Source of the DNA: an uncultured Clostridia bacterium
Lineage (GTDB): Bacteria; Bacillota; Clostridia; Christensenellales; Borkfalkiaceae
DNA length: 5,152 bases
Reading direction: 5' to 3'
Assembly (NCBI GenBank): GCA_934254755.1
Contig: CAKQMM010000110.1
Location: forward strand, 1 to 5,152
Positions 1-5,152 of the stretch are shown piece after piece. Position 1 is the first letter of the stretch, and each line of letters opens with the position of its first letter. The position numbers and the translations under genes are program-made. The notes below the pieces were generated by a model. That model made no database searches and had not been told where the DNA came from. It worked only from the letters and a program-made list of their open reading frames with translations.

Positions 1-78
1 CGCCTGACCTAAAAAGTAAACGTTAAGGGTTCCGCTTGAAACTTTATCGTATTTAATTTGATTTGCTAAATTATCCAT
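1..78 (-). CDS. N-terminus of probable UlaG-like MBL-fold hydrolase (partial)
   Basis: Only the first 26 codons are inside the window; the gene continues past its left edge. The ATG at 78-76 is preceded by AAGG (85-88) six bases upstream, a modest ribosome site. The visible protein begins MDNLANQIKYDK and then reaches LNVYFLGQA. From memory, that last string matches the first beta strand of the UlaG-like branch of the metallo-beta-lactamase fold, where VYxLGQAGF leads into the domain. The metal-binding HxHxDH motif would lie outside the window, so catalysis cannot be confirmed. It follows the short-chain dehydrogenase by 23 bases and is very likely the third gene of the same operon. UlaG itself is an L-ascorbate-6-phosphate lactonase, so a lactone or phosphosugar ester hydrolase would suit the neighbours, but that is inference. 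The reading frame is well supported and the family call only moderately. Confidence 0.55.
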   Translation of the reverse strand, partial: MDNLANQIKYDKVSSGTLNVYFLGQA

Positions 79-101
79 ATAAAACCTTATTTTGCGGTAA
101 C

Positions 102-878
102 CTAAAAATTTCTCGCGAAACCGCCCGCCGTCCAGCCGCCGTCAACGGGCAAAACCGCGCCCGGTCTATATTTAGAGAGGTCGGACGCACAAAACATCGC
201 CGCGCCGACTATATCTTCGGGCGTCGCTTGCCTGCCCATGGGGATATGAGCTAAATGCCCTTTCATCTTTTCATCGTTTTGCCAAAGCTTGTTCGTCAGC
301 TCTATGCCGACAGTGCCGGGCGCAATGCAGTTGACCCGCACGTTTTTTTCGGCAAGTTCTATGGCCGCCGCCTTGGTTAAGTTTATAACCCCGCTTTTTG
401 CAGCCGCAAACGCGCATTGGTTCCTAAGCGGCGTTATACCGACGATAGAACTTATATTTATTATCGACCCGCCGGCTATGTTAAAGTTTTTAAGCGCGTG
501 TTTGGTGCAGTTATAAACCCCTTTTAAATCGACCGCCAAAATAGCGTCCCACCACTTATCGCTGAAATTTTCAACCGTTTTGCGCTCGTCCGTTCCGACG
601 TTTATGCCCGCGTTGTTTATAAGCACGTCGATATATCCGACTTCGCTTTTTATCGCCTTAAAGTTTTCTTCAACAGCTACGGGGTCGGTTATATCGAACT
701 CGCGCGCATAACACGCGCCGCCGAACGATATAATTTCGCTTTTAATTTTATCGGTGTTTTTAAGGTCTAAACACACGACTTTTGCCCCGTCCCTCGCAAA
801 ACCCTTCGCTATAGCCGAGCCTAAACCGCCCGCCGCGCCCGTTATAACGACGACTTTATCTTTTAAATTTATTTCCAT
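102..878 (-). CDS. Short-chain dehydrogenase/reductase (SDR), catalytic Tyr apparently replaced by Phe
   Basis: A 258-residue protein of classical SDR length with a Rossmann fold. The cofactor motif TGAAGGLG spans residues 13-20, and Asp38 ends the second strand, which in this family usually favours NAD(H). Asp62 (adenine contact), NNAG at 88-91, the catalytic-region Ser144 in NISS, Lys161, and RVNCIAPGTV after it are all in place, as is the C-terminal PVDGG. Two active-site positions are odd: YxxxK reads F157-AAA-K161, and the Asn of the usual N-S-Y-K tetrad is Asp117 in VDLKG. The Phe codon is a plain TTT in an otherwise intact frame. The start ATG has a strong AAGGGGG site (884-890) that overlaps the stop codon of the upstream zinc dehydrogenase. 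The two genes are 10 bases apart, so they are probably cotranscribed and translationally linked. The fold is certain; the substrate is unknown, and reductase activity is uncertain because of the Tyr change. Confidence 0.95.
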   Translation of the reverse strand: MEINLKDKVVVITGAAGGLGSAIAKGFARDGAKVVCLDLKNTDKIKSEIISFGGACYAREFDITDPVAVEENFKAIKSEVGYIDVLINNAGINVGTDERKTVENFSDKWWDAILAVDLKGVYNCTKHALKNFNIAGGSIINISSIVGITPLRNQCAFAAAKSGVINLTKAAAIELAEKNVRVNCIAPGTVGIELTNKLWQNDEKMKGHLAHIPMGRQATPEDIVGAAMFCASDLSKYRPGAVLPVDGGWTAGGFARNF

Positions 879-888
879 AATATCCCCC

Positions 889-1938
889 TTACAGATATTC
901 GTCGAAAGCGGTGAGCATAATTTTAACCGCTTTGCCGTTTATAAGTTCGCCAAACGCTTCGCTATACTTACTTAGCGGCATAACTTTAATAAGCGGCTCT
1001 AAATTCAACTTTTCGACTTTTAAAAGATTAAGGGCGATTTCCCACCCCGTGTATGAAGACGACATATTAAAATACATATCTATTACTTTTAACATCGCTT
1101 CGTTATAGGGGAAGTTCACCAACTCTTTTCCGCTTAAACCTATCGCGCAAAGCCTGCCTTTTTTCTTTAAGCATTTAACGGCGTTTATAATCGCCGAGTT
1201 TGCGCCCGAACATTCGACCGCTATATCCGCGCCGACCCCGTCCGTTTCGTCGAGAACCGCTTTAATCTGGTCAACTTTTTGAACGTTTATGAACCTGTCG
1301 AACGCGCCCGCTTTCAATGCGGCAGGGAGGCGCACGGCTTCGTCAACCGTGCAGCCGCACATTATAACCCTGCGTGCGCCCGCCGCTTTTGCCGCAAGAC
1401 CCGCAAGCATAGCTATCGGCCCCGCGCCCGTTACGACCACATAGTCGCCCGCGTAAACTTTAGCGCGCTCGATGAGTTGATGCGCGACTATCGCCAGCGG
1501 TTCGCAAAACGCCGCCGTTTTAAGAGGAACGTTTTCGGGAATTTTATGCAACAGTTTTTCGGGCATCTTTACGTATTCCGCAAACGCGCCGTCTATCCCC
1601 GAGCCTATCGACCGCTTTTGGTCGCAAATCTGAATGTTCCCGGTTCTACACAAATAACACGTTCCGCACGCCTCGTTGTGCGGCTCGCCGACGACCCTGT
1701 CGCCCGCTTTAAAGTTTTTGACTTTGCCGCCCGCCTTTACTATAACGCCCGAAAACTCGTGCCCGATAGTCACGGGCGGATAATAGGTATATTGGTCGGC
1801 TAAAATATGCAAATCGGTTCCGCAAATTCCGCCGTACGCAACCTTTATCAGCACTTCGTCGTCACTGATTTTTGGAATCGGTTTTTCTAACAGTTCGATA
1901 TTTCCTTCGCCCTTTTTCGTCTTTACAAGCGCTTTCAT
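889..1938 (-). CDS. Zinc-dependent alcohol/polyol dehydrogenase (MDR family)
   Basis: A 349-residue, full-length medium-chain dehydrogenase of the sorbitol/threonine/butanediol dehydrogenase group, expected to oxidise a secondary alcohol on a polyol or hydroxy acid in the cytoplasm. The GroES-like catalytic domain has the zinc ligands Cys39 (GGICGTDLH), His60-Glu61 (GHEFSG) and Glu146 (FCEPLA). The structural zinc site is Cys91, Cys94, Cys97 and Cys105. The Rossmann domain starts at VVVTGAGPIA (167-176). The third glycine of the usual GxGxxG is Ala176, and the second strand ends MCGCT (193-197) without the Asp typical of NAD enzymes, so NADP use is possible but unproven. The ATG is preceded by GGAGA (1944-1948). 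It is the first gene of an apparent operon with the SDR and the MBL-fold gene, downstream of a leader rich in inverted repeats. The family is certain; the substrate cannot be assigned. Confidence 0.95.
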   Translation of the reverse strand: MKALVKTKKGEGNIELLEKPIPKISDDEVLIKVAYGGICGTDLHILADQYTYYPPVTIGHEFSGVIVKAGGKVKNFKAGDRVVGEPHNEACGTCYLCRTGNIQICDQKRSIGSGIDGAFAEYVKMPEKLLHKIPENVPLKTAAFCEPLAIVAHQLIERAKVYAGDYVVVTGAGPIAMLAGLAAKAAGARRVIMCGCTVDEAVRLPAALKAGAFDRFINVQKVDQIKAVLDETDGVGADIAVECSGANSAIINAVKCLKKKGRLCAIGLSGKELVNFPYNEAMLKVIDMYFNMSSSYTGWEIALNLLKVEKLNLEPLIKVMPLSKYSEAFGELINGKAVKIMLTAFDEYL

Positions 1939-1963
1939 ATAATTCTCCGCTACGCCGCTTTTT

Positions 1964-1996
1964 CGTTTAAAACCGCATTTATCCGATTTTTAAACG
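1964..1996 (-). repeat. Inverted repeat in the leader of the zinc dehydrogenase gene
   Basis: Nine-base perfect arms CGTTTAAAA and TTTTAAACG (1964-1972 and 1988-1996) enclose a 15-base loop. The repeat lies about 26 bases upstream of the zinc dehydrogenase start. It could fold in the leader RNA, but the stem is AT-rich and no T tract follows on the minus strand, so it is not a terminator. It may be a protein site or chance AT-rich symmetry. Confidence 0.35.
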
Positions 1997-2013
1997 GTCG
2001 GCTTTTATTTCAC

Positions 2014-2029
2014 TTATAGTCTACTATAA
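2014..2029. promoter_or_regulatory. Candidate operator palindrome TTATAGT-CT-ACTATAA
   Basis: Perfect 7-base arms separated by two bases, in the promoter region of the zinc dehydrogenase operon. On the minus strand the symmetry includes two -10-like strings (TATAGT and TATAAG), but I found no good -35 element at 16-18 bases from either. A regulator binding here would cover the likely -10 region. Its centre is 32 bases, about three helical turns, from the centre of the next palindrome upstream. The regulator is unknown. Confidence 0.4.
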
Positions 2030-2046
2030 TTTTTACGATATTTCTA

Positions 2047-2060
2047 TGCGTATATACGCA
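2047..2060. promoter_or_regulatory. Candidate operator palindrome TGCGTATATACGCA
   Basis: A perfect 14-base palindrome in the gap upstream of the zinc dehydrogenase gene. GTATATAC cores of this kind are reminiscent of operators used by GntR-type repressors, and the TG...CA ends recall LacI-type sites, although the LacI central CG is absent. Its position, together with the palindrome at 2014-2029, suggests substrate-dependent control of the downstream catabolic operon. No regulator gene is in the window. Confidence 0.45.
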
Positions 2061-2146
2061 AAAAACATTGTTTTATTAGCAAGCTGAAAATAAGTGGGGA
2101 ACAAGCCGTTTTAAGCTGACTGAGCGTTGGCGCCTATAAAAACACG

Positions 2147-2181
2147 CAAAATAAAAACCGCAGGCAAAAACCTACGGTTTA
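2147..2181 (-). terminator. Rho-independent terminator after rubrerythrin
   Basis: Ten-base arms (2155-2164 and 2171-2180) enclose a six-base loop. On the minus strand the one non-Watson-Crick position is a U-G wobble, while on the plus strand it would be a C-A mismatch, so the hairpin is built for minus-strand RNA. It is followed in that direction by a T-rich tract (TTTTTATTTT). It lies about 90 bases past the rubrerythrin stop, after the palindrome at 2227-2258. Its loop, UUUUUG between G and C pairs, resembles the UUUUG loop of the two other terminators in the window. Confidence 0.85.
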
Positions 2182-2226
2182 ATTCAATTTATCGGGGCGC
2201 GTAAACTCGGCGTTTCAAGCACAAGT

Positions 2227-2258
2227 TAGCCGAGCGGGACTCGAGCCCCGCTCGGCTA
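2227..2258 (-). repeat. 32-base palindrome with T-arm-like loop, copy 1
   Basis: Twelve perfect base pairs (TAGCCGAGCGGG with CCCGCTCGGCTA) enclose an eight-base loop, and a thirteenth pair (2226/2259) extends the stem. It starts 13 bases after the rubrerythrin stop, ahead of the T-tract terminator. A second copy, identical at 29 of 32 positions, sits at 3001-3032 in the same relation to the next gene upstream. On the minus strand the loop region reads GGCTCGAGTCC, close to the tRNA T-loop string. It may be a dispersed palindromic repeat or an mRNA 3'-end stabiliser. No full tRNA surrounds it. Confidence 0.85.
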
Positions 2259-2271
2259 AGCGCAAACAGTT

Positions 2272-2811
2272 TTAATAATTTTCGGAGCGAACTTCAAAAT
2301 AACTTTGCGGGTGGTTGCACGTCGGGCAAACTTCGGGGGCTTTAACGCCGATAACTATATGTCCGCAGTTTCTGCATTCCCAAATTTTAACTTCGCTTTT
2401 TTCAAAAACCTTTTTCGTTTCGACGTTTTTTAAAAGCGCGCGGTATCTTTCTTCGTGGTGTTTTTCAATCTCGCCGACCAAACGGAATTTTTCGGCTAAA
2501 TCGGGGAAGCCTTCGTCTTCCGCGGTTTTTGCAAACTCTTCATACATATCCGTCCACTCGTAATTTTCGCCTTCCGCCGCCGCCTTTAAGTTGCCCGCCG
2601 TATCGGATAAGCCCGACAACTCTTTAAACCACATTTTAGCGTGTTCTTTTTCGTTTTCGGCGGTTTTTAAAAAGAGCGCGGAAATCTGCTCGTATCCTTC
2701 CTTTTTCGCTACGCTTGCAAAGTAGGTGTACTTGTTTCTTGCCTGGCTTTCGCCGCTGAACGCCGCCTGCAGGTTCTTTTCGGTTTTGGTGCCGCTGTAT
2801 TTGTTAGCCAT
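2272..2811 (-). CDS. rbr: Rubrerythrin
   Basis: A 179-residue cytoplasmic peroxidase-type protein that reduces hydrogen peroxide with electrons from rubredoxin or related carriers; it is a standard oxidative-stress defence in anaerobes. The N-terminal ferritin-like four-helix domain carries the diiron carboxylate pattern: Glu21 in FSGESQA, Glu54-x-x-His57, Glu98 in AEDEGF, and Glu116-x-x-His119 in the last helix. The C-terminal rubredoxin-like domain has Cys146-x2-Cys149 and Cys162-x2-Cys165 to bind one iron. The length and domain order are those of ordinary rubrerythrin, with nothing missing. The ATG follows an AGGAG site (2817-2821) and a sigma-A type promoter at 2892-2920. It is flanked by terminators, so it is probably monocistronic. 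I saw no convincing PerR box at the promoter. Confidence 0.97.
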
Positions 2812-2891
2812 ATTAACTCCTTTTTATAAGCGGGTTTTTATCTTTTTAAACTTGACTTCCGCTTAGTTCGTTTTAGTGTTTTAACAATTAA

Positions 2892-2920
2892 ATTTTAATA
2901 CACGTTTTTTAATAAATCAA
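2892..2920 (-). promoter_or_regulatory. Sigma-A type promoter of rubrerythrin
   Basis: On the minus strand TTGATT (2920-2915) and TAAAAT (2897-2892) are separated by exactly 17 bases. Transcription would start near 2885, giving a leader of about 70 bases before the rubrerythrin ATG. A 13-base AT-only inverted repeat (2887-2899) overlaps the -10 box and may be chance. Confidence 0.75.
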
Positions 2921-2969
2921 CGCTTATTTGAAAATATTAACCGATTTTCACAAAACCGCGCCGCAAACG

Positions 2970-3001
2970 AAAAAACTATCGGCAAAACCGATAGTTTTTT
3001 T
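2970..3001 (-). terminator. Terminator after the DUF4417 gene, copy of the livF terminator
   Basis: Arms CTATCGG and CCGATAG (2976-2982 and 2988-2994) around a five-base loop, extended by A6 and T6-T7 flanks to a stem of up to 13 pairs. Both strands have a T tract, so it could act in both directions; here it ends minus-strand transcription of the DUF4417 gene. Thirty bases (2970-2999) are identical to 4641-4670. It directly abuts the palindrome at 3001-3032. Confidence 0.9.
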
Positions 3002-3032
3002 AGCCGAACGGGAATCGAACCCCGCTCGGCTA
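3001..3032 (-). repeat. 32-base palindrome with T-arm-like loop, copy 2 (supplies the stop codon)
   Basis: This is the second copy of the palindrome at 2227-2258, differing at three positions. On the minus strand it has a 12-pair stem with a single G-U wobble; on the plus strand the same position is an A-C mismatch, so the structure suits minus-strand RNA. Its loop region reads GGTTCGATTCC, the canonical tRNA T-loop consensus. The first three bases on the minus strand, TAG, are the stop codon of the DUF4417 gene, and the terminator follows with no gap. Confidence 0.85.
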
Positions 3033-4223
3033 TCCGCAATACATAAACCCCGCAAAACTAACGTCGTCCCAGATATCTTTTAAAAGTTTTCCGTCAACGC
3101 TTGCGTTGTTCATGAAATCTTCGCGCGAAGAAAACTTCCGTTTCGTATCGTCGCTGCATATAACTATATTGCGGTTACTTTCCAAATACACTTCATAAGT
3201 GACGCCATAAACGATAAAAAGCATTTCGCTATAAAAATAAAGTCCGTTTACGAATTCGTTGAACGTCGCCTTAAAAGGTTCCCCGTTTAAATATTGCCGC
3301 CTTGCGGTTGTGGGCGAAACGAGCATCGGGTAACTTATGCCGCGGTCTTTTTCAAATTTTTCTTCATCTTTTGAAAATTTCCAACCGCAATTTTTACACT
3401 CGCCGTTTCCGTATTCATCGCGATAAGCGACTTGCCCGCATATAGAACATTTAACTTTTATAGTCTTCGCCAACGGGTCTTTGTATTTAAAATATTTGAA
3501 ATCAGCAGAATTTAATCCTGACACGTTTTTGTTATGCTTTTCCCATTCAAATTGAGCACGCTCTTGCCAAGATAAGTTTTTTGTCCATTCATACGTAGTA
3601 GGCAAAAACTCTACAACATTACCTTTCATTTCTTTAAATGCTTCATCGTAACAAAGTATAACACTTGGTTTTATTCGTTTTAACATTTCATTGTACCCAG
3701 ACATAAAATCGTCTTCTACATTCTCACGATAATATGTACACACTGCAACAATAGAACCCTCTTCAATACCGTCAAAACAAAAATCAAAAGTACTTTTATC
3801 ACCCCAACTTACTGTAGGAATAACCTTTAATCCTTTTGACTGCCAAAAGGCTCCACACCAGCGATTTTTAAAGACGCTTTCAATTTGCAAGGCTTTCGGC
3901 ATATTCGTAAAAATCGAAAAATCGGGCGACAGTAAACAATAATAATTGCTTAATTTATCTAACTCCTCTTCCGCATTATTATACACTTTTTCAAATTTCC
4001 AGTCATAAGTAAAAAAATGTATTGTCTTATCGTAGTTTGACACATCTCCAACTTTTGCATTTGGATAACTTAAAAAATGCACTTTCTTAATATCTATTGA
4101 CTGTTTCCTAATTATAGGAAATTCATATTTTCCCGTACTTTTATTACAATATAAAAACTCATTTCTGACAAGTTTTTGTTTTAATTTCTGTTTATTTTCT
4201 TCGTAATCACTTTTAATATCCAT
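3030..4223 (-). CDS. DUF4417-type protein with zinc ribbon, compositionally chimeric
   Basis: A 397-residue protein of unknown function. Residues of about 45-210 match what I remember of DUF4417 (found in phages and mobile elements): LLSPDFSIFTNMP (97-109), NRWCGAFWQSKG (120-131), IPTVSWGD (135-142), FDFCFDG (146-152) and GSIVAV (157-162). A four-cysteine zinc ribbon follows (Cys259, Cys262, Cys276, Cys279), then about 115 residues I do not recognise, ending SFAGFMYCG. There is no signal peptide or clear membrane segment, so it is probably cytoplasmic. The ATG follows AGAAGG (4229-4234), which abuts the stop of the 97-residue gene 11 bases upstream. CpG density is about 2.5 per 100 bases up to codon 248 or so and about 9 after it, by hand count, so the N-terminal two thirds look foreign and the zinc-ribbon end looks resident. 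The stop codon lies in a palindromic repeat. The frame is certain and the domain name comes from memory. Confidence 0.9.
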   Translation of the reverse strand: MDIKSDYEENKQKLKQKLVRNEFLYCNKSTGKYEFPIIRKQSIDIKKVHFLSYPNAKVGDVSNYDKTIHFFTYDWKFEKVYNNAEEELDKLSNYYCLLSPDFSIFTNMPKALQIESVFKNRWCGAFWQSKGLKVIPTVSWGDKSTFDFCFDGIEEGSIVAVCTYYRENVEDDFMSGYNEMLKRIKPSVILCYDEAFKEMKGNVVEFLPTTYEWTKNLSWQERAQFEWEKHNKNVSGLNSADFKYFKYKDPLAKTIKVKCSICGQVAYRDEYGNGECKNCGWKFSKDEEKFEKDRGISYPMLVSPTTARRQYLNGEPFKATFNEFVNGLYFYSEMLFIVYGVTYEVYLESNRNIVICSDDTKRKFSSREDFMNNASVDGKLLKDIWDDVSFAGFMYCG

Positions 4224-4234
4224 AGAAACCTTCT

Positions 4235-4528
4235 TTAATCGTAATATTCATAATCCGGCTCTATAAACACCGGCTCTCTATATGCTTTGTCCCCAATCCA
4301 ATACCAAATATGGTCGTGTGGAAAATAGTGGCTATGATCTCTATCTTGATGTATATAATCTCTATTTCGTATGACTTTTCCTTCAAAATCAAACCATCTG
4401 CTTTGAATTTTTACACCATGCACATATAAATCCATTCTAGAATTTGGCACCGCACCACTAGTAGGCAAATCGCCAGACCTTCCATTAACTATTATCACGG
4501 AACGATTAGGCACTCCCCCTGACCCCAT
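4235..4528 (-). CDS. Small His/Tyr-rich protein of unknown function, paired with DUF4417 gene
   Basis: A 97-residue soluble protein I cannot assign to a named family. The N-terminus is glycine-rich (MGSGGVPNRS). The core has SGDLPTSG (18-25), PNSRMDLYV (28-36), QSRWFDFEG (42-50) and RNRDYIH (54-60). A histidine cluster follows (His60, His65, His67, His71, His73) in HSHYFPHDHIW, and an acidic, tyrosine-rich tail ends the protein. From memory, similar PNS-D...RxY...FPHxHxW sequences occur beside DUF4417 genes and as C-terminal domains of large polymorphic-toxin-like proteins. Metal binding or nuclease activity is therefore conceivable but unproven. The start is firm: GGAGGT (4535-4540) lies six bases upstream of ATG, and a good promoter lies at 4582-4610. 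It is the first gene of a two-gene unit. Codons are AT-rich and CpG-poor, unlike livF and rubrerythrin, which suggests transfer. Confidence 0.85.
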   Translation of the reverse strand: MGSGGVPNRSVIIVNGRSGDLPTSGAVPNSRMDLYVHGVKIQSRWFDFEGKVIRNRDYIHQDRDHSHYFPHDHIWYWIGDKAYREPVFIEPDYEYYD

Positions 4529-4581
4529 TATAACACCTCCGAAAAATTTTGTCCCACATTTAATGGTTGTTGTTTTATTGT

Positions 4582-4610
4582 ATTTTATCTTGTGCTTAAA
4601 GTAGTTTCAA
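4582..4610 (-). promoter_or_regulatory. Sigma-A type promoter of the 97-residue/DUF4417 gene pair
   Basis: On the minus strand TTGAAA (4610-4605) and TAAAAT (4587-4582) are 17 bases apart, each matching five of six consensus positions. The start would fall near 4575, leaving a leader of about 45 bases with the GGAGGT site. A 10-base palindrome CAATATATTG (4608-4617) overlaps the -35 box and could be an operator. The promoter lies just past the livF terminator, so the pair is transcribed independently of livF. Confidence 0.78.
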
Positions 4611-4639
4611 TATATTGTGACACCTAGTAATTTTCTAAC

Positions 4640-4674
4640 AAAAAAACTATCGGCAAAACCGATAGTTTTTGTTT
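4640..4674 (-). terminator. Terminator after livF
   Basis: Arms CTATCGG and CCGATAG (4647-4653 and 4659-4665) around a five-base loop, with A7 and T5 flanks that lengthen the stem. Read on the minus strand it starts about 8-10 bases past the livF stop and ends in a run of seven T. Its 30 bases 4641-4670 are identical to 2970-2999 at the far side of the DUF4417 block. Confidence 0.9.
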
Positions 4675-4681
4675 TAAAATT

Positions 4682-5152
4682 TTATTCGCCTAAGTATGCG
4701 GCTTTGACTTTATCGTCGTTCATAAGTTCGACGCCCGTTCCGCTCATAGTGATTTTGCCCGTTTCAAGGACGTAAGCGCGGTCGGCGATAGACAAAGCCT
4801 TTTTAGCGTTTTGTTCCACCAAAAATACGGTGGTGCCCGCTTTGTTTATCTCTTTAATCGTGTCGAAAATGGTGTTGACGTATAGCGGCGATAAGCCCAT
4901 TGACGGCTCGTCTAAAAGCAACATTTGCGGGTGCGACATCATAGCCCTGCCGACCGCAAGCATCTGCTGCTCGCCGCCCGACAAAGTACCCGCGACCTGT
5001 CCCGCGCGCTCTTGAAGGCGGGGGAAAATATCGTAAACCTTTTCAAGCGTTTCTTTAATCTCTTTTTTGTCGCTTCTAGAATACGCGCCGAGCATCAAGT
5101 TATCTTTAACCGATAATTCCTGGAAAACCCTACGCCCTTCGGGGACTTGCGT
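4682..5152 (-). CDS. livF: Branched-chain amino acid type ABC transporter ATP-binding protein LivF (C-terminal part)
   Basis: The frame stays open to the window edge, so the gene is cut at its 5' end; 156 C-terminal residues are visible. It is the cytoplasmic ATPase subunit of a high-affinity amino acid (or amide/urea type) importer, normally paired with LivG, two permeases and a binding protein. The first visible residues read TQVPEGRRVFQELSVKDNL, the LivF-specific string after the Q-loop. LSGGEQQ (visible residues 57-63) is the ABC signature. MLLLDEPSMGL (about 77-87) is Walker B with the catalytic Glu. VEQNA follows, where this family carries Gln in place of the H-loop His. Walker A lies outside the window. 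The in-frame TTG at 5098 and ATG at 5095 are internal codons, because conserved LivF sequence continues upstream. A hairpin terminator follows the stop, so livF is the last gene of its operon. Confidence 0.93.
   Translation of the reverse strand, partial: TQVPEGRRVFQELSVKDNLMLGAYSRSDKKEIKETLEKVYDIFPRLQERAGQVAGTLSGGEQQMLAVGRAMMSHPQMLLLDEPSMGLSPLYVNTIFDTIKEINKAGTTVFLVEQNAKKALSIADRAYVLETGKITMSGTGVELMNDDKVKAAYLGE

Follow-up and report, generated by a model that had tools for sequence, protein, structure and literature searches.

A small histidine-rich protein and its obligatory partner domain in a clostridial DUF4417 cassette: a candidate toxin-antitoxin-type unit on mobile DNA

What does a short cassette built around a DUF4417 protein do for the clostridia that carry it? 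The question is raised by a 5,152-nucleotide stretch of DNA from an uncultured Clostridia bacterium of the Borkfalkiaceae (GenBank assembly GCA_934254755.1, contig CAKQMM010000110.1, positions 1 to 5,152; hereafter “the window”), in which a 97-aa protein, here called SML, and a 397-aa DUF4417 protein are encoded in tandem on the minus strand. A reading made from the sequence alone (the original prediction) had described the two genes as a mobile accessory cassette whose products work together, possibly in phage interaction, in defense, or as an effector/immunity pair. Following up this proposal, we arrive at a tentative answer, to which we assign a probability of roughly 0.45: the cassette may be a toxin-antitoxin-type unit, with SML as the predicted toxin and the C-terminal domain (CTD, residues about 248-397) of the longer protein as the predicted antidote. 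The cassette is likely swappable cargo of mobile DNA, found mostly in uncultured clostridia.

Results

The 397-aa protein (3030..4223, minus strand) is a fusion. Its match to the DUF4417 family PF14386 covers residues 29-203 and scores 178.1 bits against a curated cut-off of 28.9 (E 1.5e-52), which confirms the identity first proposed. Downstream of the DUF4417 core (residues 36-247; 3483..4118, minus strand), which has a barrel-like predicted fold, lies the CTD (residues 248-397; 3033..3482, minus strand), a predicted antitoxin/immunity domain that combines a zinc ribbon with a domain resembling phrog_3711. The open reading frame (ORF) of SML (4235..4528, minus strand) ends 11 bases ahead of the fusion gene and is preceded by a ribosome-binding site, GGAGGTG (4534..4540, minus strand), common to many relatives in an upstream comparison of 18 sequences. 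Both ORFs, the 11-base gap, the strong ribosome site (GGAGG ahead of the small gene) and a cluster of five histidines within 14 residues of SML (H60, H65, H67, H71 and H73) are as originally described.

To follow the two proteins across genomes, we built profiles for SML, the CTD, DUF4417, an HNH-like protein and a second small protein, c62. Patterns matched 98 stretches of the genome collection, and 66 loci encode SML relatives; with the window these make 67 loci, on all of which the profiles were run. Testable copies of SML, with at least 700 nt downstream, numbered 73 of 75 (L014 and L027, where the contig ends, were set aside). The results show that the CTD is the next profiled domain within 250 nt of SML in 73/73 of these copies, either as its own gene (56/73) or fused behind DUF4417 as in the window (17/73). 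Some of the loci are near-duplicates (L062 and L063, for example), so that the copies are not all independent. No DUF4417 core occurs within 4 kb of 12 of the 73 copies, a few of which lie near contig ends, and an HNH-like gene is present for 31. At other loci the SML-CTD pair stands beside a separate DUF4417 gene and an HNH-like protein, or lacks both. What stays constant is SML with its CTD, to which DUF4417 is often, though not always, added. Homologues of the two window proteins, whose rare adjacency would have spoken against the original prediction, were adjacent in every testable copy; the idea that the products belong together therefore stands, with the amendment that the constant partner is the CTD and not DUF4417 itself.

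The CTD is also found beyond this pairing: among 104 CTDs in the 67 loci, 17 lie directly behind another CTD and 10 behind none of the profiled domains, and c62 is followed by a CTD/CPCC gene in 5/5 cases. In L057 (7959-8768), SML and CTD share one 269-aa reading frame. Four loci with the order DUF4417-HNH-small-CTD (L043, L047, L049 and L058) have the same three upstream genes (clusters c7, c6 and c3), which gives some copies the look of having a fixed position on the chromosome. Decay of the cassette beginning with the toxin gene was also considered, and a locus scan with cleaned profiles did not support it.

We then compared how SML, core and CTD diverge. Co-divergence in fused loci, where the core lies between the other two, was measured in 14 of the 17 (L002, L017 and L059 were left out as truncated or split). 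The partial Spearman correlation between SML and CTD given the core was 0.81, that between SML and core given the CTD 0.60, and 0/999 permutations reached the SML-CTD value; with near-duplicates removed (11 loci), the two values were 0.83 and 0.62. The preference for the CTD is absent from the wider set: over 44 loci the values were 0.46 for SML-CTD and 0.45 for SML-core, over the 40 loci kept after dereplication 0.43 and 0.47, and over the 29 unfused loci 0.38 and 0.46. The wider test is neutral; co-divergence consequently does not decide whether CTD or core is the true partner, and the confidence that we place in the toxin-antidote reading has been lowered for this reason.

The window’s own fusion gene bears marks of a mosaic. 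Its closest relative, P0032, shows 0 differences in residues 1-263 and all 13 of its 13 differences in residues 264-376, a clustering with p about 7e-7 under a uniform distribution, the boundary having been set once the data were known. GC content at third codon positions (GC3) changes from 0.27 to 0.50 at codon 292 (change-point analysis; 2/2000 shuffles as strong), and among the 14 fused genes only the window’s shows a large GC3 jump (0.26 to 0.45; next largest, 0.18 to 0.25). Taken together, the confined differences and the jump suggest CTD exchange behind a constant DUF4417 core, likely by recombination.

For SML, a sequence search returned 31 homologues and a profile search 302, the closest being P0001, which differs at 8 of 97 positions. 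The AlphaFold2 (AF2) model is all-beta (pLDDT 88), and R44, D57, H60, H71, D72, H73 and W75 form invariant columns in 61 sequences. SML has no match in Pfam or NCBIfam and no significant one in PHROG; none of the PADLOC defense models matches it, and neither does any solved structure by sequence search. Family matches gave no secretion or trafficking domain, and no signal peptide is visible by eye. In L003 (upstream of 8001) and several relatives, a hairpin, GGTTGAAG...CTCCAACC-TTTT, lies between promoter and start codon; it resembles an attenuator and was not seen in the window.

Relatives of SML in other settings look like toxins. The domain matches 15 phage records, all of Paenibacillus larvae phages, in proteins annotated as toxin; identity to these proteins is 27% for the window SML and 49% for P0215 (over 63% of P0215). 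In the viral contig L067, the protein that contains it also has choline-binding repeats, a hydrophobic stretch and an apparent signal peptide, and on a Paraclostridium bifermentans plasmid (L185) it ends a 216-aa protein, again with an apparent signal peptide (both peptides judged by eye). The next gene in L185, 11 nt downstream, encodes a 78-aa product that matches phrog_3711 (8.1e-8) and the second half of the CTD (4.2e-7). By these matches, L185 appears to hold the same pair in a distant host; the zinc ribbon is missing there, and the 8 kb shown include no DUF4417 annotation. The second small protein, c62, matches a place on a Salmonella plasmid annotated as RHS protein plus hypothetical protein (33%, 7e-6), as well as, in a phage portal family, the C-terminus (1.5e-4). 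It is established that different families, in phages too, have toxin domains in common (available text of PMC5576092). The toxin-annotated relatives, the L185 pair, the c62 matches and the co-divergence in fused loci thus give indirect support to the effector/immunity idea of the original prediction; toxicity, its neutralization and any role against phages are our inference.

For the 397-aa protein we found 1295 homologues, and its AF2 model has a pLDDT of 88.7 and a pTM of 0.63. The zinc ribbon of the CTD is formed by C259, C262, C276 and C279, where library matches (about residues 252-294) are weak and below cut-off; the phrog_3711 match covers residues 322-390 (E 3e-9). The CTD also occurs as separate genes in relatives; these copies match PF14206 near its cut-off, and the window’s own CTD has no listed match to that family. 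A literature search for CPCC/PF14206 proteins as immunity proteins found nothing. No defense system matched the 397-aa protein in a PADLOC scan, the best hit being Cas12f over the zinc ribbon (E 0.044), and a sequence search of solved structures gave one chance-level match, Calpain-7 (E 0.081).

DUF4417 is common on phages, as the original prediction stated: 473 phage records match, none of them covering 80% of the 397-aa query. The four phage members that we examined all lack the CTD, and one has extra N-terminal sequence. Two streptococcal phages encode DUF4417 at a distance of two or three genes from terminase genes, a mycobacteriophage has it at its left genome end, and in a Christensenellales phage it adjoins a major tail protein gene. 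In a viral collection, the window protein matched 0 loci, and the A1 and A3 profiles one each. According to the available text of PMC12704722, DUF4417 is frequently fused to ParB-type domains. In Mycobacterium phage Luchador (L102 369-2698), the DUF4417 gene is gene 1, annotated as nuclease, and is followed by genes annotated as VIP2-like toxin, immunity protein and HNH endonuclease; in viral contig L100 (28-3181), DUF4417 and an HNH-like protein stand beside what appear by eye to be Ku and an ATP-dependent DNA ligase.

That the cassette is mobile, as first proposed, is borne out for its relatives, in which near-identical cassettes sit in unrelated flanks. L003 and L009 are 97.7% identical from -165 to +1625 relative to the SML start, L005 and L007 96.8% identical from -163 to +1823, and L003 and L008 97.3% identical from -190 to +1529, in each case not beyond; L003 and L005 additionally share 0.9 kb further upstream at 90%. 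The cassette ends recur: in 12 genomes chosen for holding a cassette, the 3′ end was matched in 11/12 and the 5′ end in 12/12, up to 6 times per genome, many of these matches being partial. Other cargo is found between the same ends, namely c62-CPCC-DUF4417-HNH in L175, and an uncharacterized 217-aa protein with a DUF1848 protein in L176 (1210-3221); a similar gene pair lies behind a 5′ end in L177 (1391-3008). The DUF1848 protein of L176 matches the PADLOC model RTasDUF1848, a defense-associated reverse-transcriptase accessory (9.8e-41), and a literature search on DUF1848 found no paper. The uncharacterized gene of the L176 and L177 pairs (about 200-217 aa) looks methyltransferase-like, by eye only. 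In L017, the DUF4417 cassette is directly followed by another (1813-2925) whose 5′ and 3′ ends are the same but whose small genes differ, in an array-like arrangement.

At several 3′ ends, a terminator is surrounded by decamer repeats such as TTGACAGCAA, and a tRNA end comes next; we interpret these repeats as integrase arm sites. In 23 loci scanned, full tRNA genes were found at the 3′ ends of L004, L176, L181 and L183, and 44-nt 3′ fragments of a threonine tRNA lie behind L003, L005, L007, L175 and L041, broken at the anticodon loop and with 0-6 mismatches to the L181 tRNA. Of the 67 loci, 10 have an integrase cluster as neighbor and 3 a serine-recombinase cluster (so named by eye), the cluster identity being Pfam-checked for L003 only. 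Four window-type cassettes (L003, L004, L005 and L007) lie between an integrase and a tRNA end. PADLOC matches to defense-type neighbors include DNA methylases (L003, L007 and L026), an MzaC-like protein (L004) and a large DdmD-like protein next to the cassette (L009, 4067-7468). A large DdmD-like protein also adjoins the cassette in L045 (1685-5065), the PADLOC match being that of the L009 protein. The PADLOC scan covered ten hand-picked proteins, seven near window-type loci and three of other cargo, with no control set, and its matches are therefore examples and not an enrichment.

In the window itself, the signs of mobility are fainter. No integrase or other site-specific recombinase is encoded in its 5.2 kb. 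A hairpin like the T-arm and acceptor stem of a tRNA (3001..3032, minus strand; fold z -4.7) overlaps the stop codon of the fusion gene and is possibly an attachment-site remnant; a search for its source tRNA found no exact match to a 21-mer of it in 151 genomes of the order of L001’s genome. ARAGORN found no tRNA in the window, and an Rfam scan gave sub-threshold matches only. The family is patchy, the window protein being matched in 30/396 genomes of the same order. Of the two flanking genes, called housekeeping genes in the original prediction, one encodes a rubrerythrin and the other, represented by its end, an ABC-transporter ATPase, which we take to be LivF. As an empty site we looked for the window’s arrangement at 30 rubrerythrin loci (the best of 390 matching among the 396 genomes, with flanks of about 1.5 kb or less), and 0/30 had it, L122 having a 32% match to the transporter ATPase nearby; this search thus did not show an insertion in the window itself.

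Some further features of the window agree in part with the original prediction. A promoter-like site with the proposed 17-base spacing, TTGAAA-17-TAAAAT (4582..4610, minus strand), does exist but is unremarkable: the consensus scan gave 11 matches in the window and 6.4 +/- 2.1 in shuffles, which makes the site weak evidence alone. For the proposed terminator, two 34-bp palindromes that flank the block and are 97% identical (downstream copy, 2966..2999; upstream copy, 4637..4670) do fold as terminator-like hairpins, but a simple terminator scan did not list them. They are direct repeats, and an insertion trace and a common terminator of the genome are both possible explanations. The block had also been called CpG-poor. 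The small gene (observed/expected 0.89) and, in the DUF4417 gene, the 5′ part (1.23) fit that description; the last 421 bases of the DUF4417 gene (2.25) do not, being host-like beside the four flanking genes (1.62-1.88). This compositional break, like the tRNA-like hairpin, had been absent from the earlier description.

Discussion

We prefer the toxin-antidote reading because SML has an obligatory partner, the partner occurs in extra copies, its domain has apparently been exchanged, relatives of SML are toxin-like, and the pair travels in a frame of mobile cargo. Based on this model, SML would attack the cell from within by means of its conserved His/Asp/Arg cluster, the probable activity being that of a metal-dependent nuclease, and the CTD would bind and silence it. 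Fusion of the CTD to DUF4417 would tie release of the toxin to the fate of DUF4417, such that loss of the element or phage attack could free SML, resulting in addiction and/or abortive defense. As to DUF4417, we favor a role in linking the pair to the biology of phages or of the element, since the domain is common in phages, is often ParB-fused, and lies near terminase genes in two streptococcal phages. A more elaborate version seems doubtful: DUF4417 would be a phage-mimicking bait with an antitoxin tail, a phage product arriving at the barrel would free the toxin and abort the infection, and the cassettes would be exchanged, their tails swapped, at a cargo slot close to the integrase of tRNA-targeting elements, where other defense genes are also carried.

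The kind of system would be a known one, and its unusual trait, as we read the domain order, is a predicted antitoxin fused to DUF4417. Like type II toxin-antitoxin addiction modules, the cassette has two genes, a small putative toxin, an adjacent partner and a place on mobile DNA; unlike them, it places the putative antitoxin downstream, builds it on a zinc ribbon, and joins it to a 250-residue domain of unknown function. With polymorphic toxin/immunity systems, MuF and Rhs included, it shares a toxin-like domain found both in larger, apparently secreted proteins and in small genes, a partner gene immediately next to it, and tandem partners; it departs from them in that SML stands alone without a trafficking domain and the partner is fused to DUF4417 in a cassette. 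The window protein resembles DUF4417 phage proteins over the stretch that matches their family, and differs from the phage members examined by its CTD.

Alternatively, the cassette might have been stranded from a polymorphic toxin system that acts between bacteria, as a toxin tip left orphaned with its immunity gene, serving to recombine onto secreted toxins or to protect against them; this strikes us as improbable. The SML domain does occur in the apparently secreted proteins of L067 and L185 and in phage “toxins,” and tandem CTDs look like immunity-gene arrays; yet the start and the ribosome site of SML are its own and conserved, a secretion signal is not visible, and the partner is present for every testable copy. 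Unlikely as well, if less so, is a restriction- or DNA-modification-like module, in which the DUF4417 barrel would act on DNA as a distant relative of the tRNA-guanine transglycosylase (TGT) fold, the HNH-like protein would be the nuclease where present, and SML and the zinc ribbon would be accessory recognition subunits. A fold search did give a resemblance of DUF4417 to tRNA/DNA-guanine transglycosylases, confined to the predicted fold. Comparison with TGT and phage 9g DpdA profiles found no sequence relation, in tests that were blunt (the DUF4417 profile held 4 stray sequences among 159), and no 7-deazaguanine genes are annotated near DUF4417 in four phages; neither sequence nor gene context, then, supports DUF4417 as a 7-deazaguanine DNA enzyme.

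Least probable by far, in our estimate, is a phage-derived packaging or interference function by which DUF4417 hampers competing phages. The abundance of DUF4417 in phage records and its positions near terminase genes, at a mycobacteriophage left end and beside a major tail protein gene would agree with such a role, but it leaves unexplained the obligatory SML-CTD pairing and the pairs that occur without DUF4417.

Phages and mobile DNA widely encode DUF4417, to which Pfam assigns no function; the domain is now tied to an obligatory small partner. The SML family, its zinc-ribbon partner and the cargo frame that they share mark where further conflict genes may sit in the integrative elements of clostridia.
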